43,322 nucleotides of DNA from Acidobacteriota bacterium (lineage in GTDB: Bacteria > Acidobacteriota > Blastocatellia > Chloracidobacteriales > Chloracidobacteriaceae). Both the position numbers and the translations under genes were made by a program. The stretch is taken from the NCBI GenBank assembly GCA_016208495.1, contig JACQXX010000100.1, positions 1 to 43,322 of the forward strand. The letters run 5' to 3'. Shown here one piece after another: positions 1,963 through 32,689 of the stretch. Position 1 is the first letter of the stretch; each line of letters opens with the position of its first letter. The notes beneath the pieces were generated by a model, which saw only the letters and a program-made list of their open reading frames with translations, did not search any database and was not told the DNA's origin.

Positions 1963-2070
1963 TTATACCATTTTGGAATGGCATCCTCGTATTAGCAAAC
2001 AGCTAAATTATTGAAAAAATTGCATTTTCCTGAACCATGAATCCGATCCCATGAACCCTAATTGGTATTA
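1963..2070 (-). repeat. Heptamer-cored palindromic element, 108 bp
   Basis: Read on the minus strand it begins TAATACCAATTAGG at 2070 and ends CCAAAATGGTATAA at 1963, so the ends are inverted copies. After the first end come four degenerate 7-bp units (GGTTCAT, GGGATCG, GATTCAT, GGTTCAG), then an AT-rich stretch (CAATTTTTTCAATAATTTAG). The copy at 15165-15272 has the same length and order. The TAA at 2070-2068 is also the stop codon of the cusA-like gene. Confidence 0.8.
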
Positions 2071-5382: not shown

Positions 5383-5451
5383 ATCCGCCTCCTTGATGTC
5401 ATCCTGTACCACCCCGACTTTGAATGTGAAAGCGTGGGGTTTGGGAAAAGG

Positions 5452-7032: not shown

Positions 7033-7045
7033 AGTCAGGTTCCTT

Positions 7046-8383
7046 TCACCGAATCAATTCGACTCCAAGGAGCGGTTCCAAGGCAGCCAGGGCTTTGGCC
7101 TGATTGGCGACCTGTTCGTAATAATTAAGTTGGTAGGTTTGGAGCGTCAGTAAACCGTCCAGCAGGGTTAAAAAATCCACTTTCCCAACTTCATACCCGG
7201 CAATGGCGGATTCCAACGAAAGGGTTGATTGGGGAATGATGGTGGTGCCGTACAGGGTGGTCAATTTCCGGGCGGTGGTAACGGCCAGATGCTGTTCCTT
7301 GAGCTTGAAGAAAACCAGCGACGACAGGGTTTCCAATCGTTTTTGCTCCATGGCCGTGGCCGCTGCCGCCTCGGCGAGGGCTGGCCGTTGCTTTCTCCAA
7401 AAATAAAGCGGGAGTTTCAGACCCAGGCTGATGCCGTACATTTCCGGCAATTTGGGGCGATGGTAATAGATAAATCCGATACTGAAATCAGGATAAAACT
7501 CCTTTTGCGCCAGTTGGAACCCGTATCGCTCGCGGTCGATACGGCGTTTTTGGGCCTTGAACTCTGGATAGTTGGCGAGCGCCAGGTCCTTCATTTGGAC
7601 CAGCGTCAATGTGAGCATCGGGGGTTGAAGTTCGGCGGGAAGCCCAAGTTCTGCCTCCGGGTCGCGGAATCGTAGCTGGTTCAGGGTGGCTTCCACGGTC
7701 AGGCGTCGTTGTTCCAAAATCGCCAGTTGGTCAATCAGTTTGGCGATTTCGACCTGGGCCTTGAAGACATCCTGCTGGATCCCTTTCCCAACCGAATACC
7801 GGGCTTCAGAAATCCGGGTGAATTTTTCAAGCAGGTCTTTGTTTTTTGTAATGATTTCAGTGGATTTGTACAAATACCACCATTCAATATAGGCACTTTT
7901 AACTTCGGCAGTCAGATTGAGCCGTGTCTGCTCGTACTTCCACCATTCCGTATCGGCCTCGACCGAAGCCATTTTGGCCTTGAGATCGAGTTTTCCGGGA
8001 AAAGGGAACTCCTGGCTGAAATTGAGCATTCGAGCACTGGCGGGGTCTTCGGATTGAAGGTCGAACGATGGCAACGGGTTGATGTTTCCAGCGTAACTGT
8101 AGGTCACTATTGGTTCCGGCAAAGCTTTCGCCTGCGGCACCCGTGCTCGCATCCGATCAAAATTGCGGGCCATGGATTGGATTTCAGGGTTGTGCTCCAA
8201 CGAGTCCGCTACCAGGTCACGCAGTAGCACCAGTGACGGCTGAGGTGCGGAGGCTGGTGGTATTGGTGTTTGCTGGGCACCCACCGGAACCCACCAGCCA
8301 TCGCAGACCAGCCACACCACCAGCCACCCAGCCAGGGACATACTTCCCGTAGGGTTTTTAGAGCCAGGCTTGAACCATTTCAT
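7046..8383 (-). CDS. cusC: TolC/CusC-like outer-membrane efflux protein
   Basis: The 445-residue product has an N-terminal signal (SLAGWLVVWLVC...GAQQ) and the two repeated helical hairpin modules of the outer-membrane efflux family: RDLVADSLEHNPEIQSMARNF near residue 50 and MKDLALANYPEFKAQKR in the second half. SQEFPFPGKLDLKA is typical of the metal-pump branch. The conserved turn near the C-terminus is GYEVGKVDFLTLLDGLLTL. It forms the trimeric channel through the outer membrane for the CusBA-like pump. The start at 8383 has an AGGGGG site. It is the first structural gene of the pump after the small upstream protein, from which it is separated by a palindromic element with a strong hairpin. 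Confidence 0.93.
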   Translation of the reverse strand: MKWFKPGSKNPTGSMSLAGWLVVWLVCDGWWVPVGAQQTPIPPASAPQPSLVLLRDLVADSLEHNPEIQSMARNFDRMRARVPQAKALPEPIVTYSYAGNINPLPSFDLQSEDPASARMLNFSQEFPFPGKLDLKAKMASVEADTEWWKYEQTRLNLTAEVKSAYIEWWYLYKSTEIITKNKDLLEKFTRISEARYSVGKGIQQDVFKAQVEIAKLIDQLAILEQRRLTVEATLNQLRFRDPEAELGLPAELQPPMLTLTLVQMKDLALANYPEFKAQKRRIDRERYGFQLAQKEFYPDFSIGFIYYHRPKLPEMYGISLGLKLPLYFWRKQRPALAEAAAATAMEQKRLETLSSLVFFKLKEQHLAVTTARKLTTLYGTTIIPQSTLSLESAIAGYEVGKVDFLTLLDGLLTLQTYQLNYYEQVANQAKALAALEPLLGVELIR

Positions 8384-8401
8384 AAGGCCCCCTGCAACTA
8401 T

Positions 8402-8550
8402 TAATGCGAATTAAGAGTTGAAAAAATAAGCGGATTTGAGCCCAGGAACTGAGCGGCAGGCTCGGAGCCCAGAGTTGCACCCTGGGCTCTGAGCCTGCGT
8501 CTCCTTCGTAGACTGAGAACCAAAACCACTTCAACCCTGCATTCGCATTA
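8402..8550. repeat. Palindromic element with TAATGCGAAT ends and strong internal hairpin
   Basis: TAATGCGAAT at 8402-8411 has its exact inverted copy at 8541-8550, and GTTGAA is shared a little further in, so the element has inverted ends. Inside is a stem of 17 pairs with one mismatch (8456-8472 with 8482-8498) and a 9-base loop. The outer TTA at 8548-8550 is also the TAA stop codon of the 149-residue gene. As RNA the hairpin would lie between the first gene and the outer-membrane factor gene of the operon and could act as an attenuator or processing site. Confidence 0.75.
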
Positions 8551-8997
8551 TTGTTTTGGTCGTGGTTCGTTGCCTTGCATTTCCTTGGCTCGAAAAGTGT
8601 GAAACTCAGCCATCCATTCGGCTTCGCGAGCCAGGGATTCGGCGGCGGTAATGTAGTGCTCACAATGGAGACGCATCTTTTTCACATAGCTGTTTTCAAT
8701 CACTTCCTTGGTTTGAGGAACCCGCTTTTTGTAATCAGCCAGCATTTTGTGGTGGAATTCGGCTTCCGCGCGGTATTCAGCGGCTTTCTTGCGGTAGCTT
8801 TCCGCCATCGCCAGATGTTCCGCCGCTGTTTGCGGCGGTTTGTCTGTCTGAGGCAGGGATTGTTCAATCGTTGGTGTTGATGTGGCTGGTTGCCCGAAAC
8901 CCGAAACGGTCACTGCTGTTCTTGCAAAGGCAATCAGCAGGGCCACCACCACTGCCATTGCCGCCACTGTTTTTCTGAATCGTTCCAGTTGGTTCAT
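8548..8997 (-). CDS. Small exported helical protein, first gene of efflux operon
   Basis: This 149-residue protein has a single N-terminal hydrophobic segment (residues 10-30, AAMAVVVALLIAFARTAV) and then an almost wholly helical, charged region. Visible possible metal ligands are in AEFHHKMLADYKKR, MRLHCEHYITAAES and EWMAEFHTF (His, Met and Cys in heptad-like spacing). I do not recognise a named family. Its position as first gene of a CusCBA-like operon, with its own strong GAGGAGGT site, suggests a periplasmic metal-handling or stress-sensing accessory protein, in the manner of CnrX/ZraP-type helical hairpins. That comparison rests on architecture only. Confidence 0.82.
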   Translation of the reverse strand: MNQLERFRKTVAAMAVVVALLIAFARTAVTVSGFGQPATSTPTIEQSLPQTDKPPQTAAEHLAMAESYRKKAAEYRAEAEFHHKMLADYKKRVPQTKEVIENSYVKKMRLHCEHYITAAESLAREAEWMAEFHTFRAKEMQGNEPRPKQ

Positions 8998-9304
8998 AAC
9001 CTACCTCCTCAATCCGTTTCAAACGCGCACTGCTTCAGTCACCAGATAATAGAACAAATCCTGTACCATACCCGGAGAACCAGGGGATCGTCGGATACGT
9101 CAATCAAACCAGAGGGTTAGGAACCGCCTCAATCAATCCCCAACCAGGGATGTGTCTGAAAACAAACAGTGAGGTGTCTACCTGACAGACAGTTTCACGC
9201 CCTGTGCTTCCTGCCGGATACGGTATAATTGCGGTTATGGAGTGGCATAGTGGTTGCGCTCCAATTTTTGATACCAGACGCTCTGCGGCCAAAGGGAAGG
9301 CGAC
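8998..9304. other. Divergent regulatory region between efflux operon and NtrB/NtrC pair
   Basis: This 307-base gap separates the minus-strand efflux operon from the plus-strand two-component genes. It holds the sigma-54 promoter listed separately. On the minus strand I found no GG-N10-GC match close to the efflux operon start, so how that operon is transcribed remains open. No small gene is apparent. Confidence 0.6.
9243..9257 (+). promoter_or_regulatory. Sigma-54 (-24/-12) promoter for the two-component genes
   Basis: TGGCAT-AGTGG-TTGC places GG and GC exactly 10 bases apart, the spacing that sigma-54 requires, and fits the TGGCAC-N5-TTGC consensus with one change. The expected start would be about 12 bases further on, some 35 bases ahead of the kinase ATG. 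The downstream genes encode an NtrC-type activator, so autoregulation is likely. Confidence 0.75.
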
Positions 9305-10390
9305 ATGGAACCCATTCAGCGATTGATTCGGAACGGAAACCCGGAAACTATGATGATCGTGGTGGTGGTGGTCCTCATCACGGGACTCCATTTTTTGACC
9401 AGCACCAAATACCTGCTCCTGCACGAAATTTTTCAGCGGTTGTACTACGTTCCGATCATTTATGCGGCCTACCGGTACGGTGTGCGAGGTGGGCTGGCAA
9501 CTTCCATTTTTAGCAGTCTGATTTACCTGCCGCATATTTTTCAGCATTGGGACCACTATGAAATCTACATGCTCAACCAGTTAGCCGAAGTGCTGTTGTT
9601 TCAAGTTGTGGCAGTCGTGACCGGAATCCTGGCGAATGCGGAACGGGTCCAGCGAACCCGGAGCGAGCAGGCAGCGAGCGAACGGCAACAGGCATATGAG
9701 GAACTCAAGCAAACCGTTGAGCAACTAATGGTCGCGGAGCGGATGACAACCCTGGCCCAGCTTTCACTGGCGTTAGTTCACGAAATCCGAAATCCATTGG
9801 GTGGGATTCGCGGGGCTGCCGAAGCACTGGAAACCGTCCTTCCGCCGACCGCGTCCAGTGGTGAATTCCTCGCCATTATTCAAGCCGAAGTTACCCGGCT
9901 CAACCGCCTGGTAACCGAATTCCTTGAATTCGGACGACCTCGCGTCCCCGAAAAACTTCCAACGCCGCCCAAGGAGCTGATTCAATCGGTGATCCGACTC
10001 ACTAAACAACATCTCAAGGAACACAAGGTTGAAGTGAAAACTGATTTGGCGCCTGACCTGCCACAGATTCTGATTGATTCCGAACAAATCAAACAGGTTC
10101 TGATCAACTTGATCTTGAATGCCCTGGAGGCCATGCCTGACGGCGGCGAACTGTATCTCGGGGCACATTTACAGCACAATGAGCTGGAAATCCGAATTGC
10201 CGATACCGGGCATGGCGTCAGCGAAGAAATTCGCGAACGGCTGTTTCAACCCTTTGTTACCACTAAGGCAAAAGGTTCCGGGTTGGGGCTGGCGATTTGC
10301 GGCAAACTGGTCACCCAAAACGGCGGCACCATTTCGGCGGAAAACGGAAGTGATCGGGGAACCGTGCTCTGGCTCCGCTTTCCGATCTGA
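9305..10390 (+). CDS. NtrB-type sensor histidine kinase
   Basis: The 361-residue kinase begins with a membrane domain of four or five helices (residues 16-110) with little periplasmic sequence between them, so it probably senses within or near the membrane. A coiled-coil signalling helix (110-145) leads to the dimerisation H-box HEIRNPLGGIRG with the phospho-accepting His159. The ATP-binding domain shows N-box NLILNALEAM, G1 DTGHGV, F-box PFVTTKAKG and G2 GSGLGLA. It starts after an AAGGCG site. The response regulator follows 17 bases later. Divergent from the CusCBA-like operon, it is most likely its metal sensor, comparable to ZraS/HydH; the stimulus is inferred from context only. Confidence 0.92.
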   Translation: MEPIQRLIRNGNPETMMIVVVVVLITGLHFLTSTKYLLLHEIFQRLYYVPIIYAAYRYGVRGGLATSIFSSLIYLPHIFQHWDHYEIYMLNQLAEVLLFQVVAVVTGILANAERVQRTRSEQAASERQQAYEELKQTVEQLMVAERMTTLAQLSLALVHEIRNPLGGIRGAAEALETVLPPTASSGEFLAIIQAEVTRLNRLVTEFLEFGRPRVPEKLPTPPKELIQSVIRLTKQHLKEHKVEVKTDLAPDLPQILIDSEQIKQVLINLILNALEAMPDGGELYLGAHLQHNELEIRIADTGHGVSEEIRERLFQPFVTTKAKGSGLGLAICGKLVTQNGGTISAENGSDRGTVLWLRFPI

Positions 10391-10407
10391 CGAAGGAGGC
10401 TAAGGCT

Positions 10408-11802
10408 ATGACCCCTGAACCCAAAATGCTCTTGCTGGTTGACGACGACGACAGCCTTCGGCGGGTCCTCCATCATCATTTGACGCAGGCCGGATATCAG
10501 GTTCTGACGGCGGCCAATGGTGAAGACGGCCTGCGGCTGTATACCGAAAACCCGGTCTCCCTCGTCATCACCGACGTGCTCATGGAAGGGATGGACGGAA
10601 CGGAACTCCTTCGCCGGATTCGTGCCCTAAGCGACGAGGCGATGGTGATTGTTATCACAGCTCACGGCACGATTGAAGCGGCGGTGACCGCCATGAAACT
10701 TGGCGCCTTCGACTACATCACCAAACCATTCAACCGTGAGGAATTGTTACTGACGGTTTCCAAGGGCCTCCAGTTCACTGATTTGGTGCGGGAAAACAAG
10801 TCCCTCAAGCGGTTCATCAACGAGCATTTTTCCATCACCAATCTGGTTGGGGCCTCCACCGGGATGCGCAAAGTCCTGACCCTGGTTGAAAAAGTCGCCC
10901 GGACCGACGCCATCGTCCTGATTACTGGGGAGAGCGGTACTGGTAAAGAACTCATCGCCAAAGCCATCCATCAGAACAGCCGCCGCCGGGACAAACCGTT
11001 TGTCGTAATCAACTGCGGCGCGATTCCGGAAGGACTACTTGAATCGGAACTGTTCGGCCATAAAAAAGGGGCGTTCACCGGTGCTATCGCTGATGCCCGA
11101 GGGGTGCTTGAGTCGGCTGAAGGTGGAACAGTCTTTCTGGATGAAATCGGAGAACTCCCCCTGTCGCTCCAGGTCAAACTTCTGCGGGTGCTTCAGGAAG
11201 GAGAATTTCTTCGCGTTGGGGACCATGCCCCGCACCGGGTCAATGTGCGGTTTCTGGCTGCCACCAACCGATCACTTGATAAAATGATCGCAGAGGGAGA
11301 TTTTCGGGAAGACCTGTATTTTCGTCTCAACGTCGTTCCGCTGGTCCTTCCACCTTTACGTGACCGCCGGGAAGACATTCCGATCCTGGCTGACATGTTT
11401 TTGACCGACCTGGCCAATAAGTACAGCCGTCCCTACCTGCGGATCGAAAAAGACGTCTTTCGCTACCTCGGCGCCTACCCCTGGCCTGGAAACATCCGCG
11501 AACTCAAAAACACGATTGAACGCATGGTGGTGCTGGCTGAAGGCGATACCATCACGCTGTCAGATTTGCCCGAACCATTTATCAAGCCAGCGGCCACCGT
11601 CGGACGGGTGACGCTGCACCTTCCCGACGAAGGAATTGACCTGGACGCAGTGGAAAAGGAAATTTTGGTCCAGGCGCTGGAGAAAAATGGGTGGAATCAA
11701 ACCCACACTGCGCGCTATCTCAGCCTGACGCGTAGCGCCTTGATTTACCGGATGCAAAAATTTGCACTCGATGAACACTCGTACAAACGACATCCGGCCT
11801 AA
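10408..11802 (+). CDS. NtrC-family sigma-54-dependent response regulator
   Basis: This is a three-domain activator of 464 residues. The receiver domain (1-120) has the acidic pocket VDDDD, phospho-acceptor Asp56 in VITDVLM, and the switch residues T and K (VITAHGT, TKPFN). The AAA+ domain (about 140-370) has Walker A GESGTGKE, the sigma-54 contact loop GAFTGA near residue 221, Walker [10 protein letters not shown] and the R-finger region [16 protein letters not shown]. The C-terminal Fis-type helix-turn-helix is [20 protein letters not shown] and following. The AAGGAGG site sits in the 17-base gap after the kinase. It should activate sigma-54 promoters for its own operon and probably metal efflux. 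Confidence 0.94.
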
Positions 11803-15288: not shown

Positions 15289-16659
15289 TCAGAAGACTGA
15301 TGTCAAAAACCCAATGCCCCCGGCGACCAGCACCGCCCACAGCACGTCAATCTTGAACCGATACAGCGCCGCAAATGCCACCAGACTCCACAGGAGCGCC
15401 CACCAGTTGGTGGTGGCTGAAAATCCTTGCGGCCAGATGACGGTGCTGCCGAAAACCAGCGCCAGATTGAGGACGACGCCGACGACGGCTGCTGTGATAC
15501 CGCTCAGGGCGGCGGTCAGGTGCTGGTTCCCGCGAAGCAACTCGATGTAGGGCGCTCCCAGAAAAATAAAGAAAAAACAGGGCAGAAAGGTTGTGTAGGT
15601 CGTAACCAACGCTCCGATAACCGCACTCAACAGCGGCGTAAGCGTGCCGGGGTGATTCCACCCGGCCATAAACCCAACAAACTGAAGCACCATAATCAAC
15701 GGGCCGGGGGTGGTTTCAGCCAGTGCCAGCCCGTCAACTGCCTGGGACTGGCTGAGCCAGCCATATGAGCCAACCGCCGCCTGGGTCACATATGCCAGCA
15801 CCGAATAGGCCCCGCCGAATGTCACCAGCGCCGCTTGACTGAAAAACAGATATTCGCGCACATGCAGGTGGTGGCGTCCCTGCCAGCTTATCAAGGCCAG
15901 TAGCGGCAGCCCCCACAACACCAGACAGATGGTCGCGATTGTGAACGCCCGTTTTCGGGAAGGCAGTGTGTGTGCCGGTGGCGGGGCATGGTCGTCAATC
16001 ACGGTTGGGAGTTCGGGCTGACCGGTTGCCGATGTATCAGTTGTCGCCTTACCTTTGGCGGTTGAGGCGGTAAATACATTTGGAGCGATTCGGTTGCCAA
16101 CCAAACCAATGAGTCCAGCCGCTAAGACAATGAGCGGGAAGGGAATGTGGAGCAGGAAAATTGCCGCAAATGAAAGCGCCGCAATCGTGTAATGAGCCTT
16201 GTGTTTGAGCGCCCGCCCGCCGATTTTGATCACTGCCTCAACGACAATTGCCACCACCACTGGTTTAAACCCGTTGAGCACCCCGGCGACGGTTGGGAGC
16301 GAGCCATAGGCCGCATACACATAGGAAAGCCCCATCAAAATAAAGATTGACGGCAACACAAAGAACCCACCGGCGACAATTCCGCCCCAGGTGCGGTGCA
16401 TCAGCCAGCCGATGTAGGTCGCCAATTGCTGTGCTTCCGGCCCAGGCAGCAACATGCAGTAGTTGAGCGCGTGCAAAAATCGTTCTTCACTGAGCCATCG
16501 CCGCCGCTCAACCAGTTCGCGGTGCATAATCGCAATCTGGCCGGCTGGTCCGCCAAAGGAAATAAACCCCAGTTTCACCCAAAACCGAAAGGCTTCGCCA
16601 AAGGTGACTGGTTGCCGGGCAGGTGATGAGTTTTCCGGCACTGTACCGGTTGAAGTCAT
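15289..16659 (-). CDS. chrA: Chromate transporter ChrA
   Basis: The 456-residue protein is a full-length two-domain member of the CHR family, an inner-membrane pump that exports chromate. The N-terminal domain carries the family signature [20 protein letters not shown] and [17 protein letters not shown], and the C-terminal half repeats it as [14 protein letters not shown] and [17 protein letters not shown] hydrophilic linker (about residues 205-245) separates the halves. It lies 12 bases behind the chrB-like gene on the same strand and is almost certainly co-transcribed with it from the AT-rich promoter near 17720. Confidence 0.96.
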
Positions 16660-16671
16660 AAGAATTGCCTT

Positions 16672-17634
16672 TCAATTTGCAGTCAGAGTCGTTTGAAAAA
16701 AGCGATAAAGCGCTTCAAACACCAGGGTTGCAATTTCCAACCGGCGTGAATCGTCCTGAATTTCCAGCGTGATGCCATTGATTACCGCTTTGATCCCGCC
16801 GGTTTCGGCCCGTTGATAGACATTGTCTTTAAGATCGAGGTCGTGGACGATTTCCCCAATCGCCCGCAAGGCCAGGTCGGAACTCCCACTCAGGTCGAGC
16901 AGGACTTCAAACGTGCACAGGTTCCCCTGATGGGTAAACTCACCCTCAAACATGTCAAAACGCAGGTGATCTGGTTCGTGGGCATAGCTGGTTGGATCCA
17001 CATAGACAAATCGCGCTGCCGGATCAATCAACCGCCGAATAAGCCAGGCTGAAGCCATTCGATCCACCTTGATGCCGGAACGCGTGACCCACGTGCGGCC
17101 AGTCAGGTTCGTCAATCCTGTTTCGGCGGGGGTGTCTGGTGACGGATACAAGATTCCGTCAATGGTCAGCAGCAGGGCATCGAGTTCCTCGCGTCCGGGA
17201 GCCTGAAAAAAGTCAATTCGGCGGACTTCTTCACTGCGTCGCTTCAGCTTTCGGAACTCAGTTTCAACCGCTGACAACTCAGGTTGTTGTGGCAACGCTC
17301 GCACTGTGGCCTGCAGGGCCTGTCCAGCCGCATTCAACGCCGCGTATTCTTCCGCCCGGAGCTTGCGGAAGTTTTCCTCTAATGTGTCGTCTGAAAGTCC
17401 GCCAATCACATCGGTTTGGAAAAGCCATGCCTCCCCACCTTCTTCAGTGATCTCCTTCAAAATCCATTGAAAATCTTCCAGCAATTCATCATTGTGCGGC
17501 AGCACGTAGGCCGAGTTTTTGATTGCCAGTGCCCCGATCTGGTGCAGCCGTCGCAAGACTTTGGCGCGAAAATACGCCGGTTTGGGAGGAATTTGGTGAA
17601 TGAGCAGCAGCCACTTTCCGGAAAATGCATTCAT
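16672..17634 (-). CDS. chrB: Chromate resistance protein ChrB
   Basis: The product of 320 residues matches the two-part ChrB layout: an N-terminal segment (WLLLIHQIPPKPAYFRAKVL, KNSAYVLP) and a C-terminal ChrB domain beginning WVTRSGIKVDRMASAWLIRR and continuing RFVYVDP, FTHQGNLCTFEVLL. ChrB acts as a chromate-responsive regulator in some organisms and has been proposed to help chromate reduction in others. It is the first gene of the chrB-chrA unit, with an AGGGAG site before ATG 17634, and the AT-rich sequence upstream holds its promoter. If it is a regulator, its target is likely that region. Confidence 0.94.
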   Translation of the reverse strand: MNAFSGKWLLLIHQIPPKPAYFRAKVLRRLHQIGALAIKNSAYVLPHNDELLEDFQWILKEITEEGGEAWLFQTDVIGGLSDDTLEENFRKLRAEEYAALNAAGQALQATVRALPQQPELSAVETEFRKLKRRSEEVRRIDFFQAPGREELDALLLTIDGILYPSPDTPAETGLTNLTGRTWVTRSGIKVDRMASAWLIRRLIDPAARFVYVDPTSYAHEPDHLRFDMFEGEFTHQGNLCTFEVLLDLSGSSDLALRAIGEIVHDLDLKDNVYQRAETGGIKAVINGITLEIQDDSRRLEIATLVFEALYRFFQTTLTAN

Positions 17635-20710: not shown

Positions 20711-20807
20711 AATACCATCTCCGTTGCCGAAAAGGTCGTTTTCGCCCGGATGGGCGGTGGAAAGTAGCCGGTGGGCAGCCTGCTTTGAGGCGCACCCACC
20801 GGAATCC
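20711..20807 (-). repeat. REP-like repeat, inverted partial copy
   Basis: Read on the minus strand it has CCGGTGGGTGCG...CAAAGC...CCCACCGGCTACTTTCC, then CCCATCCGGGCG, and ends CCTTTTCGGCAACGGAG. The order matches the plus-strand copy at 20895-21029, so the locus is a large imperfect inverted repeat. Confidence 0.65.
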
Positions 20808-20894
20808 AGGCCGAAAAACGGTTCGCGCCCGGATGGGCGCCGGAAAATCAGTTTGGTTTGAGTGGTTGAGTTTCGACAACCGTGTGGCTTTGTT

Positions 20895-21029
20895 CCAGCG
20901 CCCATCCGGACGCGATTCGATCTGGGTAGGGTCCCGGTGGTAGCTCGCAAAGCCTCGCGACCACCGGCTACTGTCCATCATCCTCCGGATGGGAAATGTC
21001 AAGATCAAGCGATCTTTCCGCAACGGAGG
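20895..21029 (+). repeat. REP-like dispersed repeat, copy 2
   Basis: Contains CCAGCGCCCATCCGGACGCG, the stem CCGGTGGTAGC...CAAAGC...GACCACCGG, TACTGTCCATCATCCTCCGG, then GATCAAGCGATCTTTCCGC and AACGGAGG, in the order of copy 1 at 12078-12216. Confidence 0.75.
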
Positions 21030-21045
21030 AAATACCATTTTTAAA

Positions 21046-21408
21046 TTATCTCATCATTCCGTACTGAAACCCTCGAACTGGCTCAATTTTTGTAAACAGC
21101 GGATTTTCAACCCCCTGACGCTGGGCTGATTCATACACTGCTTTGGCATCTACCCCATGAGCGAGCAACTGGTAACCCAGCAATGCCACCCATTGCCCGG
21201 CATATTGAGCCTGGTGTTCTTTTATCCAACGTTGCTCATCTGGCCAGGTCGCTCGTTTGGGACCGTCAGATGGTGTTGATTCTGTCGAAACATCCGCTTC
21301 AGATTTCACTAAAACAGCTTCAATTCGCTGGAATTCTTCAATTGGGATTACCACTGCAATTGGATTCTGATTTTCGTCAACCAAAAACTGTTTAGGGATA
21401 TTACTCAT
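21046..21408 (-). CDS. Phd-like plus DUF5678-like small protein
   Basis: The first 35 residues (KQFLVDENQNPIAVVIPIEE, FQRIEAVL) look like the N-terminal strand-helix of Phd/YefM antitoxins, in which this part makes dimer and DNA contacts. The C-terminal half (EHQAQYAGQWVALLGYQLLA, HGVDAKAVYESAQRQGV) fits the small DUF5678 domain. The whole is 120 residues. No toxin gene adjoins it: the neighbour upstream is the helicase on the other strand. It may be an orphan antitoxin-like regulator. The start ATG has an AAAGG at somewhat long spacing. Confidence 0.8.
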   Translation of the reverse strand: MSNIPKQFLVDENQNPIAVVIPIEEFQRIEAVLVKSEADVSTESTPSDGPKRATWPDEQRWIKEHQAQYAGQWVALLGYQLLAHGVDAKAVYESAQRQGVENPLFTKIEPVRGFQYGMMR

Positions 21409-21729: not shown

Positions 21730-24700
21730 GTGTCTGAAGATTTCTCAACTGCTTTTCTGACCCCTGCCCAAAAAATGGCCGTGACGGCGCCGCTTGAATC
21801 CCGACTGGTGCTGGCTGGTCCCGGAACTGGAAAAACCCGGACACTGGTTCATCGGGTCGCCTATCTGATTTCAGAACTTCGTCTTCCGGCTGAAAGCCTG
21901 CTTGCGGTGACTTACACCAACAAAGCCACTGAGGAAATGCGCCACCGGCTGCGTCGGATGGTGCCCGATGATGCCCAGCGGCTGTCGGTGGGAACGTTTC
22001 ACTCGTTTTGTATTCGGGTGCTCCGGCAACATTATGAAGCCCTCAACATGCCGAAACACTTTGCCGTCACCGATGAAAGAGGACAGCTCAGTGTGCTCCA
22101 AAAAGTGGTGCCGACGTTGCGCGATACCAATGACGCCAAACGGCTGCTCGGACAACTCAGCTCGTGGCGGATGTCAGAAGCAGCCCAGCGGTCTTCGTTG
22201 ACTGATTTTCAAGAAGAGACACTCAAAAAATATCTCACTGAGCTTCGCCGCCAGGCATTGATTGATTTTGACGACATTTTGCTGCTGACCTTCAAGCTAT
22301 TTCACAAGCACGCCGACGTCTTAAAGCACCAGCAGGCACAGTACCAATCCATTTTAGTTGATGAATTTCAGGACACCGACTTGCTCCAATACCGCATTCT
22401 GAAACAACTCACGGGCTTGCAGACCCCGGTGTTTGCCGTGGCCGATGATGACCAGTCCATTTTTGCGTGGCGCGGGGCCAATCCGGAAAACCTCCGGCAA
22501 TTTGTGGCTGAGTATTTGTCCAGTGACAGTGAACCGCACGTGATCAAGCTCGAAGCAAACTATCGCTGCAGCGGCTCGATTGTTGCCGCCGCCAACCGAA
22601 TGATTGCCCCAAGTTTGCGTTTGTTTGACAAAGTGCCAACGGCGGTCAATGAAACCGGCGGGCCGGTGGAAGTTCGCGAATTTGACACCGACCAGGAGGA
22701 AGCCGAAGCCATTGCCCAGGAAATCGAGGATCTGGTTCAGGATCCAGGCCAGAACCTGACCTATCGCGATCTGGCGATTTTGTACCGTCGCCACCAGATT
22801 GGCGAGGTGCTGGAACTGACGCTCCTGAGTCATGGGATTCCCTGTCAGGTGGTGCGTGGGGCAAGCCTGTTTGACCTGCCGCGAATCCAGCGCGTGCTGG
22901 CCTTGATGCGGGTACAGCTCAATCCGAAAGATGAAGTCAGTTTACAGGCTCTGGTCAAGGAATATCTCGACGATCTGTTGTTTCACAAAGTCGAAGCCCT
23001 GGCGCGGTCGTGCGGCTCGCTTCGTCTGGCGCTCTGGAAGCGGTTGAATGCCAGCGACGGTGATCATGCCGAGCGGCGTCAGATTGGCCGGGTGGTCGGA
23101 ATGCTTTCGACGGCCAAAGCCCTGTATGAAATGCAGCCCGGACTTTCGCTCAGCGAATGGGTCCAGGCGCTCAATCTCTACCTTGAAGCCGAAGTCGTGC
23201 AGCGGGTTCAGGACACGGCCAGCCAGCAAGATATGCAGCGGATTTGTGACCCGCTCGGAATTCCGGCGCTTGAAACAGCGGCGCGATGGCTCGAACGGCT
23301 TGGAATGCGTCACGGTGTACTCGTGATTGCTGCCACCGATGAAGCCAACGAACTGGCGGCGGCGTTTCTGCTCAAGCCGCTGCTGGCGAATGCCCCGTTT
23401 GGTGTCAGCACCTGGCGGGCAATCGAGGTCAATCCAGTACCAAAAGGCAAACCGATGCTGCTCCTGGCACTTGATCCGGAAGCCGAAAAAGAAGTGCTGC
23501 ACCATCATCAGTTTATTGCGATTCTGGCCGTGACGACGGTTGATTCGCCGCTTCCAAAATCCAATCCGCCCAAACGCAACCTGCCGACCAGACTGATTCC
23601 AGCCGGTGAAGCCGGGCCGCAGCCTTCGATGTTTGTCACGCTGTGGAAACTGGGCCAGGCGTATCAGGGCTTGCGGAGCAATGTGTTTTTGCCTGATTAC
23701 ACCGCTGTGGATATTGAAACGACTGATCTTGACCTTGAACGCTGTGACATTGTCGAACTGGCTGCCGTGCGGGTACGCAATGGTCAGGTCGTGGCTGAAT
23801 TTTCCGAATTGCTCAAGCCATCTGTTCCCATCAGTCCACAGGCCGAAGCCGTGCATCATATCAGCGCCTCAATGGTGGCGACTGCCCCGACGTTTGAACA
23901 GGTCGCGGCTGAATTTCGGGCCTTCATTGGTTCTGACACGCTGGTGGCGCACAACGGACTTGGGTTTGATTTCCCAATCCTGATGCGGCGGCTCCGAACG
24001 GCAGCACAGGCCGCACAACAGCCAGTCCAGGGGCTTGAGAATGCGTTTTTCGACACGCTTCCGATGGCTCGCCAGCTTTATCCGGACGCCAAAAAAGCCA
24101 CGCTCGAATCACTGGCTGCGCGGTTTGAAGTTGACCCCGGCTCCAGTCATCGTGCGCTGGGCGATACGCGCACGCTGGCGCTGGTTTTTGAACGGATGAA
24201 AACTGACTATGCCGAAGCCCAGCGGGCCCGCAACGGCTTTGACACGCTCGGATGTCTGGCCGTGGCGATGCTGCTGGAAATGGATGAACTTTCAGCCGAG
24301 AAATCGCCGCTCTTCCGACTTGGCCGCCGCCAGTGGACCTCGGAAAATACCGAAGATCTGGTCAAAACCCTGGCAACGGCGGCTGAAGGCCGGGATGATG
24401 GCAGCGGCGAGCAATTGCAGGCGGCGTGGCACATGGTGATTCAGGAATGTGCCGACAGTCAGTTGTCACGCGATGCCGCCCAGGAAACGGAAAGTTATCT
24501 GCGGTTTCTGGAACTCCTCAAACGCTATGACGGGCGACCGCTGGCCGAAGTGATCCAGGAATTCGTTGATTTTACGCGTCTCTTTCAGCAGCAGGATGGT
24601 TGGAAAGAACGCAATGCCGTGACATTGATGACGATTCACGCCGCGAAGGGCCTGGAATTTCCCTTTGTGTGGATTGCCGGTGTTGATCAGGGCGTGATTC

Positions 24701-24873
24701 CGACCTATCAGGCAATCAAGGCCGAAGGCAAGCTCCGGGCGGCCAAAGTTGATGAAGAACGTCGTCTGCTCTATGTCGCGATGACTCGGGCACAAACCAA
24801 ACTCATGCTTTCCTTTGCCCATCAGCGCAAGGGAATGGACACCGGCCCGTCCGAATTTTTGCGGAGCCTGTGA
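21730..24873 (+). CDS. UvrD/Rep-type helicase with internal DEDDh exonuclease
   Basis: The 1047-residue protein starts at GTG 21730 after AAGGAG. Superfamily 1A helicase motifs are complete: Walker A GPGTGKT (30-36), VDEFQDTD (near 211), ADDDQSIFAWRG, LEANYRCS, then after a long gap VTLMTIHAAKGLEFP (near 962) and DEERRLLYVAMTRAQ. Between motif IV and V lies a DnaQ-type 3'-5' exonuclease domain (about 655-825) with all acidic residues: D661 and E663 (AVDIETT), D747 (GFDFPIL), H807 and D812 (SHRALGDT). So unwinding and 3'-5' degradation are in one chain, with the nuclease placed in the 2B region. It is longer than UvrD (about 720). A DNA repair role is the default; a role in defence with the nuclease gene after it is possible. 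Confidence 0.95.
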   Translation: MSEDFSTAFLTPAQKMAVTAPLESRLVLAGPGTGKTRTLVHRVAYLISELRLPAESLLAVTYTNKATEEMRHRLRRMVPDDAQRLSVGTFHSFCIRVLRQHYEALNMPKHFAVTDERGQLSVLQKVVPTLRDTNDAKRLLGQLSSWRMSEAAQRSSLTDFQEETLKKYLTELRRQALIDFDDILLLTFKLFHKHADVLKHQQAQYQSILVDEFQDTDLLQYRILKQLTGLQTPVFAVADDDQSIFAWRGANPENLRQFVAEYLSSDSEPHVIKLEANYRCSGSIVAAANRMIAPSLRLFDKVPTAVNETGGPVEVREFDTDQEEAEAIAQEIEDLVQDPGQNLTYRDLAILYRRHQIGEVLELTLLSHGIPCQVVRGASLFDLPRIQRVLALMRVQLNPKDEVSLQALVKEYLDDLLFHKVEALARSCGSLRLALWKRLNASDGDHAERRQIGRVVGMLSTAKALYEMQPGLSLSEWVQALNLYLEAEVVQRVQDTASQQDMQRICDPLGIPALETAARWLERLGMRHGVLVIAATDEANELAAAFLLKPLLANAPFGVSTWRAIEVNPVPKGKPMLLLALDPEAEKEVLHHHQFIAILAVTTVDSPLPKSNPPKRNLPTRLIPAGEAGPQPSMFVTLWKLGQAYQGLRSNVFLPDYTAVDIETTDLDLERCDIVELAAVRVRNGQVVAEFSELLKPSVPISPQAEAVHHISASMVATAPTFEQVAAEFRAFIGSDTLVAHNGLGFDFPILMRRLRTAAQAAQQPVQGLENAFFDTLPMARQLYPDAKKATLESLAARFEVDPGSSHRALGDTRTLALVFERMKTDYAEAQRARNGFDTLGCLAVAMLLEMDELSAEKSPLFRLGRRQWTSENTEDLVKTLATAAEGRDDGSGEQLQAAWHMVIQECADSQLSRDAAQETESYLRFLELLKRYDGRPLAEVIQEFVDFTRLFQQQDGWKERNAVTLMTIHAAKGLEFPFVWIAGVDQGVIPTYQAIKAEGKLRAAKVDEERRLLYVAMTRAQTKLMLSFAHQRKGMDTGPSEFLRSL

Positions 24874-24918: not shown

Positions 24919-24939
24919 CAGCGACTTGTCGCTGCTTTT
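24919..24939 (+). terminator. Intrinsic terminator 2 after helicase gene
   Basis: CAGCGACTTGTCGCTG is followed by CTTTT. It has the same GACTTGTC centre as the hairpin just before, so the two may be copies of one small repeat. Confidence 0.65.
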
Positions 24940-24982
24940 CGGTGGTTCCAGGTTGAGGAAGTTGCTATTGAAAGGAGATCCC

Positions 24983-26089
24983 GTGGTGAAGAAAAAAACA
25001 CCTCGTCAGTTAAAGGCGTTGACTCCGAAACCAGTTGAAACGCCGGAAGAATCACCTGGGCGGCTTTTGAACGATATTCGCTTCTTAATCGAAGAAACCC
25101 GTGGAAGAATCGCTCGGGCGGTGAATTCCGCGTTGGTTTTACTGAACTGGCACATTGGTCATCGAATCCAAACTGAAATTTTAGGACACGAACGTGCCGG
25201 TTACGGTGATCAGGTTATTAAATTTCTGTCAGAAAAACTGACGGCTGAATATGGCCCTGGCTACACACGAACAGCTCTTTCGCGAATGGTTCAATTCACT
25301 GAGAGGTTTCCTCAAATAGAGATTGTCGCGACACTGTCGCAACAATTAAGCTGGAGTCATTTTATTGAAATCATTCCACTTAAAGACTCTCTCAAGCGCG
25401 ACTTCTATGCCGAGATGTGCCGGATTGAACGCTGGTCGGTGCGGATGCTCCGAGCCAAAATTGACGGGATGCTCTTTGAACGAACGGCGATTTCCAAAAA
25501 CACGGATGAATTCATCAAACAGGAGCTGGAAAATTTAAGAGCCGAAGACCGGATGACGCCCGATCTGGTGTTTCGAGACCCGTACCTGCTGGATTTCCTT
25601 GGATTAACCGGTACTTACAGCGAAAAAGATCTGGAGAATGCCATCCTGCGCGACCTGGAAAAGTTTCTGCTCGAACTTGGGTCGGATTTTGCTTTTGTGG
25701 CCAGACAAAAGCGCATCAACGTTGACGACGAAGATTTTTACCTCGATTTGCTGTTCTTTCATCGGCGATTGCGGCGACTGGTGGCGGTTGAATTAAAGCT
25801 CGGCAAGTTTATGCCGGCTGATTCCGGGCAGATGGAATTTTACCTCCGGTATCTGAACCGCTACGAACGATTGCCGGGCGAAGAATCTCCACTTGGCTTG
25901 ATCCTTTGCGCTGGAAAGTCAGAGCCACGGGTTGAGTTGCTCGAACTCGAACAGCGAGGAATTCGGATTGCCGAGTATTTGACCGAACTTCCACCCAAAA
26001 CCACGCTGGCCCTCAAACTGGCTGAAGTCGTTCGTCTCAATCGTGAACGGATAGACAATTTCACCCCAGGGAAAGAAACACCATCATGA
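24983..26089 (+). CDS. YhcG/DUF1016-type PD-(D/E)XK nuclease
   Basis: With the GTG at 24983 (AAGGAG five bases ahead) the protein has 368 residues. The N-terminal part (ALVLLNWHIGHRIQTEILG, then AEYGPGYTRTALSRMVQF and LSWSHFIEIIPL) is the DUF1016 helical domain. The C-terminal PD-(D/E)XK nuclease core shows D255 (FYLDLLFFH), E270 and K272 (VAVELKLG) and the following Gln (SGQMEFYLRYL). Proteins of this family occur with restriction and other defence genes and have been proposed to act on DNA or RNA; the function is not settled. It follows the helicase-exonuclease on the same strand, but two terminator-like hairpins lie between, so it may have its own transcript. Confidence 0.93.
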   Translation: MVKKKTPRQLKALTPKPVETPEESPGRLLNDIRFLIEETRGRIARAVNSALVLLNWHIGHRIQTEILGHERAGYGDQVIKFLSEKLTAEYGPGYTRTALSRMVQFTERFPQIEIVATLSQQLSWSHFIEIIPLKDSLKRDFYAEMCRIERWSVRMLRAKIDGMLFERTAISKNTDEFIKQELENLRAEDRMTPDLVFRDPYLLDFLGLTGTYSEKDLENAILRDLEKFLLELGSDFAFVARQKRINVDDEDFYLDLLFFHRRLRRLVAVELKLGKFMPADSGQMEFYLRYLNRYERLPGEESPLGLILCAGKSEPRVELLELEQRGIRIAEYLTELPPKTTLALKLAEVVRLNRERIDNFTPGKETPS

Positions 26090-29088: not shown

Positions 29089-32000
29089 TTACTTCCATTC
29101 CGGCAGGCGGCCTGGTGTCCAGGGAGCATCGGCGGCTTCGAGGGCTTTATCGAGGTTCTTGAGGTCAACTTCGAGCAGCGTGCGCAGCTTGGCGAGTTCA
29201 ACCTTGAATTCCTCATCCGCCACTTTCAATGAATCAACATGGGTTTGGGTCGGACGTGACGTGGACATCCGTTGTTCGCTCAGGATGCCTTCGATCCGTT
29301 CCGAGATTGATGGTGGTGTGGTTTCGTTCCGGGCACGGAGCACCACGTCGCCTCTGAGCGCCATCAGGATGGCGTTGAGCCGTTTTTCAATGCCCAGCGC
29401 ATCGTCCATCAGCTTGTTGTCAGCCTGGGGTGTTTCGTGAATCGCCTGTTTGATCTTCTTCAGGCGGGTTTTGGTGTCACCAGCAATTTCGAGTGCCCCA
29501 GAGACCACGCGTTTCAGCTTCATCGTTTTTTGCTGGAACTCGGTGAGCGCCGCCAGATCCGCCGGGTTCATGGTGTCAGTGCCTTCGGCGACAACCGAAA
29601 ATTCCTGTGGTTCAACCAGTTGGGTCAACACTCCATCCACCCGTTTGGCGATGTTGACTTTATAGCGTCCAGGCATGACCAGGGCCCCAAAACTACCACT
29701 GTCTTCATCAACAAAATCGGGTTGGTTTTCTGATGGAAGCTCTGGTTCCGGTTCACGAAGATCCCAGGTGACGCGGTTAAACCCAGACTGGTTTTTGCCT
29801 GTGAGTTTGCGGACCACTCGACCACTGGCATCCGTGACTGTCACCAGGATGGATGGTGGTTCTTCTTCGGCTTCGGCTCGTAACTGGTCGGGTGTTGGAT
29901 AGGGAGCTGTGGTTTTCTTTTTGACGGCTTCCTTCTCACCTTCCTGGCGCTGTTGTTTTTTGGTCTTGAGTTCGTCTTTCAGGTAGTAAGTAAACGTGGC
30001 GCCAAACGGTGGGTTTTCTGCTGTGAAGTAATTGGCCCCCTGTGAGCCTTTTCCGTTTTCCCCAATCGGACGCGACTGGATGTAGAGCAAAGCTTCACGA
30101 GTCGGATAGAGCAGGCACTCTGGTCCATTCAGGGCTTCGGCTGAGATGTTCCGCAGAGCTGAATAATCATCCAGGACATAAAATCCACGTCCAAAGGTCG
30201 CGACCACCAGGTCATTTTCCCGTTTCTGGATGGCCAGGTCGCGGACCGCAATCGTCGGCAAGCCGCCCTTTAACTGGATCCATTTCTGACCGCCATTGGG
30301 AGTGAAGAAAAGTCCAAATTCGGTGCCGGCAAAGAGTAAATTCGCAGTGCCGTGATCTTCAGCGATTGCCAGGGCTGGACCGTTCACCGGAAGGTTGGCT
30401 TTGAGCGAGGTCCAGGTTTTTCCGGTGTCGGTACTCTTGAGCACATAGGGTTTGAAGTCGTTGTTTTTGTGGTTGTCAAACGTGGCATACACCGTGGCGG
30501 CATCGTGCTGCGAGGCCAGCAATCGGCTGACATAGGTGGTTTCAGGAACTTCAGGAAATTTTTCCACCTTGCGCCAGGTGGCTCCGCCGTCTTCACTGAT
30601 TTGGATCAATCCATCATCAGTTCCGACATACAGAAGACCTTCTTTTTTGGGAGATTCAGCCAGCGCGGTAATGTTGCCATAGGGTGAGGTCGAGACACCT
30701 TTGGCCACGGCATCGGCTTCCCAAACACGTCCCATGACCGGCAGGGAATTGCGGTCAATGCGCCGCGTCAGGTCGCCGCTCACGGCTTTCCAGGTATTTC
30801 CACGGTCGTCGCTGCGGAACAGTTTGTTGGCGGCAAAATAGAGCCGCGTGTTGAGGTGTGGACTGATGATCAGCGGTGAGTCCCAGTTCCAGCGATAGGC
30901 TTCTTCGCCTTTGCCTTCAACCGGCTTGATTCCGGTCCGTTGGCCGGTCCGTTTGTCATAGCGGGTCAACCCGCCGTACTGATATTCGGAATAGACAATG
31001 TTTGGATCAAGCGGGTCAACTTGCTGGCGGAATCCATCGCCGCCCTGGGTGACAAACCAGTCGGAATTGACGATCCCAGAGGCGCTTCGGGTGCGTGACG
31101 GTCCACCCAAACTGAAATTGTCCTGGGTGCCGCCATAGATGTTGTAAAAGGGTTTCGCGTTATCAACCGTTACATCATAAAATTGGGTGACTGAGAGGTT
31201 TGACTTGTAGTTCCAGTTCGCCGCCCGGTCAAAGCTTTCGTAAATGCCACCGTCACAACCAACCAGGTAATAACTGGTGTCATTGGGGTCAACCCAGATG
31301 ACGTGATTGTCAACGTGCTTGTTTTTCTCACCCAGATTTTTGAGCGTCTTTCCACCATCGTCGGAAACTTTGATCAGCACGCCCATAATGTAAATGCGCT
31401 CGGCATTTTTGGGGTCAACATAAATGTGGGCGTAATACTGGGCCTGGGCGTCATAGGGGTTGCGCTTTTCCCAGGTGGCCCCGGAATCCGTTGACCGGAA
31501 GATCCCTCCGGCTTTATTGGTGGATTCAATCTGGGCATAGACCATCTGTGGCTCAGTTGGGGCAATGGCCAGCCCGATACGGCCCATCTGTTCGGTTGGC
31601 AGTCCCGAAGAGAGTTTATTCCAGGTCTTGCCGGCATCGGTTGACTTATGGATCGCGCTTTCAGGACCGCCGTTGATGAGCGTCCAGACGTGCCGCCGCC
31701 GTTGATAAGCCGCCGCATAGAGCACATCCGGGTTGGTCGGGTCCATGGCAAGATCGCTCACGCCGGTGTTTTCGCTGATTGAGAGGACTTTGTCCCAGGT
31801 TTTGCCATTATCCGTGGTTTTATACAGACCACGATCACCACCTGGTCCCCAGAGCGGTCCCTGGGCCGCCACATAGACGTGGTGGCTGTTGCGCGGGTCA
31901 ATCACAATTTTGCCAATGTGTTCCGAGGCTTTGAGTCCCAGATGCTTCCAGGATTTTCCTCCGTCATCCGAACGATACACACCATCGCCATAGCCGACAC

Positions 32001-32403
32001 TCCGCTGGCTGTTATCTTCGCCGGTGCCGACCCAAACCACAGATGGGTTTTTCGGGTCAAGCACTACGGTTCCAATCGAATAGGAACCTTCTTTGTCAAA
32101 AACAGATGCCCAGGTGGTTCCGGAATTGGTGGTTTTCCAGACCCCGCCGCAGGCAACGGCCACATAGTACTGCGCGCGGTTTTGGGGATGAACGGCAAAG
32201 TCAACGATCCGCCCGGAAGTCAACGCTGGACCAATCGAGCGCAATTTGAGCCCGGAAAACTTTTCAGATGCCAGCGGATCTTTGGGTTTGGAGTCAGTGG
32301 AAGCTGGATTTGGATCGGAAGATTGCTGAGCTTGAACCATCGCAAAGGTTGGCGAGAGCACGGCAATCAAAAAGAGAGACAACAAGGCACGAATTTTCTT
32401 CAA
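29089..32403 (-). CDS. Secreted VPS10/BNR beta-propeller protein
   Basis: The frame has no ATG near its start. A TTG at 32403 (LKKIRALLSLFLIAVLSP) follows an AAGGAG at 9 bases and begins with a proper signal peptide, giving 1104 residues. Residues from about 50 to 730 consist of BNR/sortilin-type repeats with recurring Asp-box motifs (KTTNSGTTWASV, RSDDGGKSWKHL, KTTDNGKTWDKV, KSTDAGKTWNKL, RSDDRGNTWKAV, QISEDGGATWRK), as in VPS10-domain proteins and glycosidases of the xyloglucanase GH74 type. The remaining 370 residues are a beta domain and a helical tail. Such proteins are common and expanded in Acidobacteria-like genomes. Substrate and activity are not readable. An 8-bp repeat array follows the stop. 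Confidence 0.9.
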   Translation of the reverse strand: MKKIRALLSLFLIAVLSPTFAMVQAQQSSDPNPASTDSKPKDPLASEKFSGLKLRSIGPALTSGRIVDFAVHPQNRAQYYVAVACGGVWKTTNSGTTWASVFDKEGSYSIGTVVLDPKNPSVVWVGTGEDNSQRSVGYGDGVYRSDDGGKSWKHLGLKASEHIGKIVIDPRNSHHVYVAAQGPLWGPGGDRGLYKTTDNGKTWDKVLSISENTGVSDLAMDPTNPDVLYAAAYQRRRHVWTLINGGPESAIHKSTDAGKTWNKLSSGLPTEQMGRIGLAIAPTEPQMVYAQIESTNKAGGIFRSTDSGATWEKRNPYDAQAQYYAHIYVDPKNAERIYIMGVLIKVSDDGGKTLKNLGEKNKHVDNHVIWVDPNDTSYYLVGCDGGIYESFDRAANWNYKSNLSVTQFYDVTVDNAKPFYNIYGGTQDNFSLGGPSRTRSASGIVNSDWFVTQGGDGFRQQVDPLDPNIVYSEYQYGGLTRYDKRTGQRTGIKPVEGKGEEAYRWNWDSPLIISPHLNTRLYFAANKLFRSDDRGNTWKAVSGDLTRRIDRNSLPVMGRVWEADAVAKGVSTSPYGNITALAESPKKEGLLYVGTDDGLIQISEDGGATWRKVEKFPEVPETTYVSRLLASQHDAATVYATFDNHKNNDFKPYVLKSTDTGKTWTSLKANLPVNGPALAIAEDHGTANLLFAGTEFGLFFTPNGGQKWIQLKGGLPTIAVRDLAIQKRENDLVVATFGRGFYVLDDYSALRNISAEALNGPECLLYPTREALLYIQSRPIGENGKGSQGANYFTAENPPFGATFTYYLKDELKTKKQQRQEGEKEAVKKKTTAPYPTPDQLRAEAEEEPPSILVTVTDASGRVVRKLTGKNQSGFNRVTWDLREPEPELPSENQPDFVDEDSGSFGALVMPGRYKVNIAKRVDGVLTQLVEPQEFSVVAEGTDTMNPADLAALTEFQQKTMKLKRVVSGALEIAGDTKTRLKKIKQAIHETPQADNKLMDDALGIEKRLNAILMALRGDVVLRARNETTPPSISERIEGILSEQRMSTSRPTQTHVDSLKVADEEFKVELAKLRTLLEVDLKNLDKALEAADAPWTPGRLPEWK

Positions 32404-32689
32404 AACCCGATTCTCCTTTTTATGGAATTGTAAATTTTTAGGAGTGGAATAGCGACGGTTGAAATTTTGACGCAAGCGAACCGATTATGCCCGGACCGGA
32501 CCTAAGTAGCAATTATTTGAAAGCAATCTAGGGAAGTAAAGACTTGCGTAGCGCACACTTGACTTGACTTTACGTCAGTTTCTCCTCTCAAATCCAACGT
32601 TCATTCAGTTGATTTAACCGTTTTCAGACAGCTTGTCCCGTGAAAACCTCTCTTTTGCGGCAGCCGTCTTTTTTCAAACTCAGGATCAT

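Follow-up and report, generated by a model that had tools for sequence, protein, structure and literature searches.

Can a UvrD-type helicase carry a complete exonuclease inside its own chain, and, if so, what would such an enzyme do in the cell? The question is raised by a gene located at positions 21,730 to 24,873 on the forward strand of a stretch of 43,322 nucleotides from an Acidobacteriota bacterium (GenBank assembly GCA_016208495.1, contig JACQXX010000100.1), the whole of which is called the window below. A preliminary description, made from the sequence alone, had proposed that all the helicase motifs are kept in this protein and that a 3'-5' exonuclease of the DEDDh type is placed in its 2B region rather than at a terminus. 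The gene is an open frame of 1047 codons that starts with GTG and shows no stop before its end, and the encoded protein of 1047 amino acids has full-length orthologues. Our results indicate that such fused UvrD-exonuclease proteins constitute a real enzyme family that has apparently not been described previously.

The Pfam assignments cover both halves of the proposed enzyme: UvrD-helicase at residues 10-260 (E 2.7e-72), UvrD_C at residues 272-1031 (E 2e-52, with a large gap inside) and RNase_T/Exonuclease at residues 659-820 (E 1.3e-27), the three matches all being well above the cut-off. Reading along the forward strand, helicase domains 1A/1B (21757..22509, residues 10-260), with motifs I, Ia, II and III and their conserved residues, are followed by the first half of domain 2A (22543..22854, residues ~272-375), which holds motif IV and was delimited by UvrD_C and by alignment to PcrA, and by a first part of domain 2B (22855..23229, residues ~376-500), also recognised by alignment to PcrA and devoid of the GIG motif. 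Two inserted domains come next, of ~330 residues together: an alpha/beta, Rossmann-like domain seen in the AlphaFold2 model, here called domain X (23242..23685, residues ~505-652), and the DEDDh exonuclease (23692..24219, residues ~655-830), with D661, E663, D747, H807 and D812. The alignment to PcrA resumes in the second, helical part of 2B (24247..24594, residues ~840-955, placed with the help of the secondary structure of the model), and the chain is completed by the second half of 2A (24607..24831, residues ~960-1034), which matches UvrD_C and UvrD_C_2, holds motifs V and VI and keeps K973, G974, R1012 and R1020.

The limits of the insertion were drawn from the PcrA alignment together with the AlphaFold2 model. 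When a profile of the fused proteins was aligned to PcrA, the first aligned stretch reached as far as PcrA residue 491 and the next one already set in at residue 474, so that the two overlap and are weak at the edge. The insertion point, at about PcrA residues 474-491, lies within domain 2B, on the basis of the range that we take 2B to have in PcrA. The proposed location of the exonuclease in the 2B region is thus made more precise, since it is found within 2B itself and beside a second inserted domain. Scores against the NCBIfam equivalogs were 396 bits for pcrA, the best one (cut-off 911), 368 for uvrD (cut-off 1144) and 365 for rep (cut-off 951); because these are less than half of the cut-offs, the protein is regarded as a member of the UvrD superfamily that is not an orthologue of any of the three. 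The Pfam matches of the entire chain, taken up to E 1, comprise 10 families, none of which is PD-(D/E)XK, and no model for a combination of helicase and exonuclease appeared among its Pfam matches, the best 25 of 50 NCBIfam matches or the best 25 of 56 PADLOC matches.

Conservation was assessed in an alignment (A3) of the window protein with 27 further fused proteins (n=28), for which two of 29 loci were omitted, one cut by a contig end (L040) and one with a frame break (L046), and in a second alignment (A1, n=12) that has the window protein and two further proteins in common with A3. The exonuclease residues had been named correctly, since D661, E663, D747, H807 and D812 are identical in 28/28 proteins of A3 and 12/12 of A1. 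On the helicase side, K35, T36, D211, E212, Q242, W247, R279, K973 and G974 are kept in all 28 proteins of A3, and E976, R1012, T1019 and R1020 in 27/27, the protein of L022 ending earlier at a contig end. R248 (motif III) and Y278 (motif IV) are present in the window protein and variable among the other members. Mean pairwise identity in A3 was 49.0% for the exonuclease, 48.7% for 1A/1B and 38.0% and 53.3% for the two halves of 2A, while the two parts of 2B (32.0% and 31.6%) and domain X (25.4%) drift. The exonuclease is thus conserved to the same degree as the motor, which would be surprising for a nuclease that had decayed or was carried as a passenger. Because its catalytic residues are intact and the domain is constrained, the protein is likely to be active as a nuclease.

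The AlphaFold2 model of the window protein, for which the 28 natural proteins were the input alignment, has a mean predicted local distance difference test score (pLDDT) of 85.3 and a predicted template modelling score (pTM) of 0.78, and shows the 1A/1B/2A/2B helicase fold. UvrD, PcrA and Rep were at the top of a Foldseek search, and in VIA-align Deinococcus UvrD superposed with 599 of its 642 residues on model residues 5-1047 (Z 41.2, 2.8 A). As for the exonuclease, E. coli Pol III epsilon (1j53) superposed on model residues 656-825 over 164 residues (Z 24.8, root-mean-square deviation 1.4 A), and the domain is close to Pol III epsilon and PolC in both sequence and fold. Since both parts superpose well in a confident model, neither a split helicase nor an unfolded inserted domain is predicted. 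The kept motif residues of the window protein and its relatives, the Pfam matches and the superposition on Deinococcus UvrD bear out an intact helicase in one chain, and the earlier statement that the nuclease fold is unlike that of AddAB and RecB, which is PD-(D/E)XK, holds as well, the domain being RNase_T/DEDDh by Pfam and by superposition. Domain X is less easily named. Its blocks have a pLDDT of 87-95 in the full model, falling to 77 at residues 601-610, and 84.2 is reached when it is folded alone, and it has no Pfam match. Its likenesses to a phosphosugar isomerase (SIS; Z 11.1, 4.6 A, 142 residues) and to RecJ (DHH; Z 9.0, 3.9 A, 132 residues) have similar scores and are of uncertain meaning, and with a best Foldseek E of 0.0029 they are too weak for the fold to be named. 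In Gemmatimonadota it is shorter (90-103 residues).

The same inserted architecture was sought in other genomes. Among the matches listed, 12 of 39 genomes, that of the window included, have the protein in one frame along its full length or close to it. Of the 10 genomes of the window's family, 9 are among them; in the tenth (G002) the fusion is broken into two pieces not far from where a contig begins. The other three are from a second family of the same order, represented by 4 genomes, and in one of the three (G013) the match reaches residue 982. The remaining genome of that second family (G010) and 25 other genomes of the class had no full-span match among those listed and gave separate UvrD-like and exonuclease matches. 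A wider scan, with one genome per species, retained the best 80 of 537 relatives. In 29 of these 80 loci (L018-L046) a helicase flanks the exonuclease, and in the other 51 the match is confined to the exonuclease. The titles of the 29 records refer to Chloracidobacterium, Acidobacteria, Gemmatimonadetes/Gemmatimonadota, Caldithrix/Calditrichota groups, bacterium UASB270 and one "Gammaproteobacteria" metagenome-assembled genome (MAG); L018, titled Chloracidobacterium sp. CP2_5A, contains the protein of G008 letter for letter, and L019 that of G011.

Counts by phylum were made at E <= 1e-180, a level that the best ordinary UvrD (5.8e-119) does not reach, and two candidates were scored per genome in the phyla of the window and of L024, L042, L047 and L075, so that the counts for these five are lower bounds. 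The fusion was found in at least 5 of 297 genomes of the phylum of the window, all of them within its family, in at least 65 of 298 of that of L024, titled Gemmatimonadetes (3 partial and 2 with one internal stop), in 21 of 40 of that of L031, titled Caldithrix abyssi (2 partial), in 2 of 4 of that of UASB270, and in at least 1 of 299 of that of L042, the "Gammaproteobacteria" MAG itself. For two further phyla, that of L047 (titled Oscillospiraceae) and that of L075 (titled Gastranaerophilales), neither of which included a positive genome of its own, the query that had matched in the others gave 0 of 299 and 0 of 292. Since bacteria of several phyla have this layout in common, the fusion represents an enzyme family and not an oddity of one genome. 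A viral origin was considered and rejected: 15 of 27 loci of a viral scan match the window protein (E<=1e-4) in the exonuclease region only, and the other 12 have no match at that level. None of the 185 phage and 1632 plasmid records with a match covers >=80% of the protein. On a Bosea plasmid (NZ_AP022849.1, 685272-688958), one joined match spans a helicase gene, a RusA gene and a dnaQ gene, which are separate from one another and may be an unfused analogue.

The motors of the fused proteins form a group of their own. In a tree of the motor core, from which the insert and 2B had been removed, the 28 fused proteins were split from 18 ordinary UvrD-like proteins, a small set from few phyla, by one branch with support 100/100. 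This split fits a single fusion event, and the patchy distribution would therefore require loss or transfer. The fusion of L042 (L042:3411-6332) groups with L034, of Gemmatimonadota, with support 98.3/96, and transfer or misbinning is possible in this case. Domain 2B has also changed around the insertion. The RGIG of the 2B of PcrA and E. coli UvrD, part of the motif with which UvrD-type 2B domains contact duplex DNA, aligns to "vLpeallkevralaee" in the fused profile, and GIG, GVG and GLG are all absent from the site in the 28 fused proteins. A [RK]G[IVL]G motif is present at the corresponding place in 11 of the 18 ordinary UvrD-like proteins. The other seven (L134, L136, L137, L138, L144, L146 and L148), which are divergent or paralogous, also lack it, so that loss of GIG is not unique to the fusion.

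How far such an enzyme is new can be judged by comparison with known systems. It has in common with UvrD, PcrA and Rep the whole motor, with its motifs and 1A/1B/2A/2B layout, and differs from them in the two 2B insertions, the missing GIG, the separate group in the tree and the presence of an ordinary UvrD-like helicase in the same genome. Like RecB, AddA and AdnAB it has a superfamily 1A (SF1A) motor and a nuclease in one chain, for which the trailing 3' end would be a natural substrate; however, the nuclease of RecB and AddA is a PD-(D/E)XK domain at the C-terminus, whereas that of the window protein is DEDDh and lies within 2B. Human WRN, a eukaryotic protein with a SF2 RecQ motor, has its exonuclease at the N-terminus, and MrfA and MrfB of Bacillus are two separate proteins, their helicase being of a different family. 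On the side of likeness, WRN is presented as a 3'-5' helicase and a 3'-5' exonuclease in one chain (PMC1435914), as is proposed for the window protein, and two reports on MrfA/MrfB describe a helicase acting with a DEDDh exonuclease in repair (PMC10889028/PMC11194089). The ExoDinG proteins (DinG of Bacillus and Staphylococcus) also join a DEDDh exonuclease to a helicase in one chain, and the exonuclease fold of S. aureus DinG gives Z 24, but their motor is SF2 and DinG-like and their exonuclease N-terminal (PMC11981726). Chains that combine a helicase with a DEDD exonuclease (WRN, ExoDinG) or with another nuclease (RecB/AddA) are therefore already known. An exonuclease inside the 2B of a UvrD-type motor was not found described in the literature, as judged on titles and the beginnings of abstracts, with few subscription papers covered; the passages of PMC5512222 that were examined deal with fusions other than this one. 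In Gemmatimonadota, Calditrichota and Chloracidobacteria an undescribed enzyme would thus be present that annotation would probably call just a UvrD-type helicase. Moreover, a nuclease sited in the mobile 2B makes the debated role of this domain testable in a natural variant.

With regard to function, we consider it somewhat probable that the protein is a chromosomal enzyme of DNA repair or replication maintenance, a paralogue of UvrD/PcrA, in which unwinding is coupled to trimming of 3' ends at gaps, nicks or stalled ends, together with RecJ. SF1A motors such as UvrD, PcrA and Rep translocate 3'-5', DEDDh enzymes shorten strands from the 3' end, and RecJ acts 5'-3'. By analogy with its family, the 1A/2A motor would move 3'-5' along one strand, and the exonuclease in 2B would take nucleotides off a 3' end. 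Since a motor that moves 3'-5' trails the 3' end of the strand it follows, motor and nuclease would fit one strand, as they do in RecB/AddA and WRN, where the nuclease is attached at another place, and the simplest coupling would be that the trailing 3' end of the tracking strand is handed from the motor to the exonuclease of the same chain, which may lie near the strand exit, as the preliminary description had suggested. The outcome would be unwinding and 3' strand degradation by one chain, and RecJ as a partner would cover the opposite polarity, so that DNA could be cleared both ways at gaps, nicks and stalled ends. Domain 2B is mobile in UvrD and is thought to control its activity. It is possible, and we propose it tentatively, that in the fused proteins a rebuilt 2B, without GIG and with the exonuclease and the Rossmann-like domain in it, gates the nuclease by its open/closed swing and so sets unwinding against 3' trimming, with RecJ, at replication gaps.

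The gene neighbourhoods that suggest RecJ as a partner are those of Calditrichota, where a recJ-like gene lies downstream on the same strand, adjacent or within ~1 kb, in 6/6 loci (by sequence clustering, with examples checked by Pfam); in L033 two short open reading frames (ORFs) stand between it and the fusion gene. A holC-like gene is found upstream in 5/6 loci, and downstream there are a DUF494 gene in 5 loci and topA in 3, although several of the loci are too short to show these genes. In one Calditrichota MAG a methyltransferase-like ORF (motif recognised by eye) and a second ORF lie between recJ and the DUF494 gene (L044:6481-8062). In Chloracidobacterium, the fusion gene is succeeded by cinA at a distance of no more than ~60 bp in 4/4 loci fetched, out of 7 genomes of the genus (checked by Pfam in one), and 5 of 17 loci titled Gemmatimonadota have in common a downstream gene, named by eye as alpha/beta-hydrolase-like. 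Several observations weigh against a coupled repair helicase. The recJ/holC neighbourhood was seen in Calditrichota only, and inspection by eye, with no Pfam run there, recognised no shared repair neighbour at the window gene or at the 17 Gemmatimonadota-titled loci. Within each phylum some genomes have the fusion and others do not, and it is therefore not part of a universal pathway. Finally, the absence of GIG could mean that unwinding is poor, in which case the motor would serve as a translocase or tether and not as a processive helicase.

The alternative that survives best, though we think it rather unlikely, is that the two activities are separate: the helicase would displace a strand or a protein, and the exonuclease would proofread or trim the nascent, non-tracking 3' end at a fork or gap, as DnaQ or ExoX do in mismatch repair or in the removal of chain terminators. 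The close likeness of the exonuclease to Pol III epsilon and PolC is in keeping with this, as are the holC-like and recJ-like neighbours in Calditrichota. In E. coli, the YoaA helicase and chi (HolC) interact and DnaQ is also required for azidothymidine tolerance, according to a report whose authors put forward as a hypothesis that YoaA is recruited to replication gaps by single-stranded DNA-binding protein via chi (PMC4636137); in this light the holC neighbour lends weight to the alternative. On the other hand, Calditrichota were the only group in which holC was observed next to the fusion.

A role in defence against phages, as a nuclease-helicase similar to GajB, is improbable. PADLOC profiles for GajB do match the helicase part, with E down to 5.2e-105, and the next gene of the window (24926-26089, forward strand), directly downstream of the fusion, encodes a YhcG/DUF1016 PD-(D/E)XK protein (PADLOC PDC-S02). 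However, these profiles span the generic UvrD motor, and a Pfam scan of the YhcG protein and of another 20 of the window's 81 ORFs with >=100 amino acids found no GajA-type protein. In the close relative G001, an ABC-transporter ATPase gene, clpP and the next genes are kept at the syntenic place and YhcG is absent, so that it is no constant partner of the fusion, and the gene in the window is possibly a recent insertion. Housekeeping genes surround the fusion in Calditrichota and Chloracidobacterium, and genomes of the phyla of L024 and L031 that match at E<=1e-180 do so only once each. A role in defence was therefore rejected.

It is very improbable that the enzyme is a stand-in for AddAB/RecBCD in end resection, which the same polarity logic, a 3'-5' motor and a nuclease in one chain, might suggest. 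PF12705, the PD-(D/E)XK domain of the AddA/AddB kind, is found in 37 of 40 Calditrichota genomes, namely 19 of the 21 with the fusion and 18 of the 19 without it, so that the two co-occur with no mutual exclusion and substitution for AddAB was rejected. Substitution for UvrD was rejected as well, since an ordinary UvrD-like helicase accompanies the fusion in the window genome and in 6/6 other fusion genomes examined. That the gene is an artefact (misassembly, a chance ORF or a decayed domain), as the odd layout and an internal stop or frame break in a few relatives might suggest, can practically be dismissed in view of the same layout at 29 loci of several phyla, catalytic residues intact in 28/28 proteins and a confident fold.

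The rest of the window holds genes of other kinds. Positions 2068-11802 are occupied by those for a resistance-nodulation-division efflux system (an AcrB-like protein, a CusB-like protein with a heavy-metal binding domain and an outer-membrane channel) and, after them, by genes for a histidine kinase and a sigma-54 response regulator, a chromate transporter with ChrB lies at 15289-17634, and a protein of 1128 amino acids with sortilin/BNR repeats is encoded on the reverse strand at 29089-32475. RNA families and tRNA genes were not found in the window. In the gap upstream of an antitoxin-like gene (21046-21408), the region 20738-20977 contains related words of 23-30 nucleotides in direct and inverted order, among them an inverted pair with arms at 20823-20845 and 20893-20915 that are 91% complementary.

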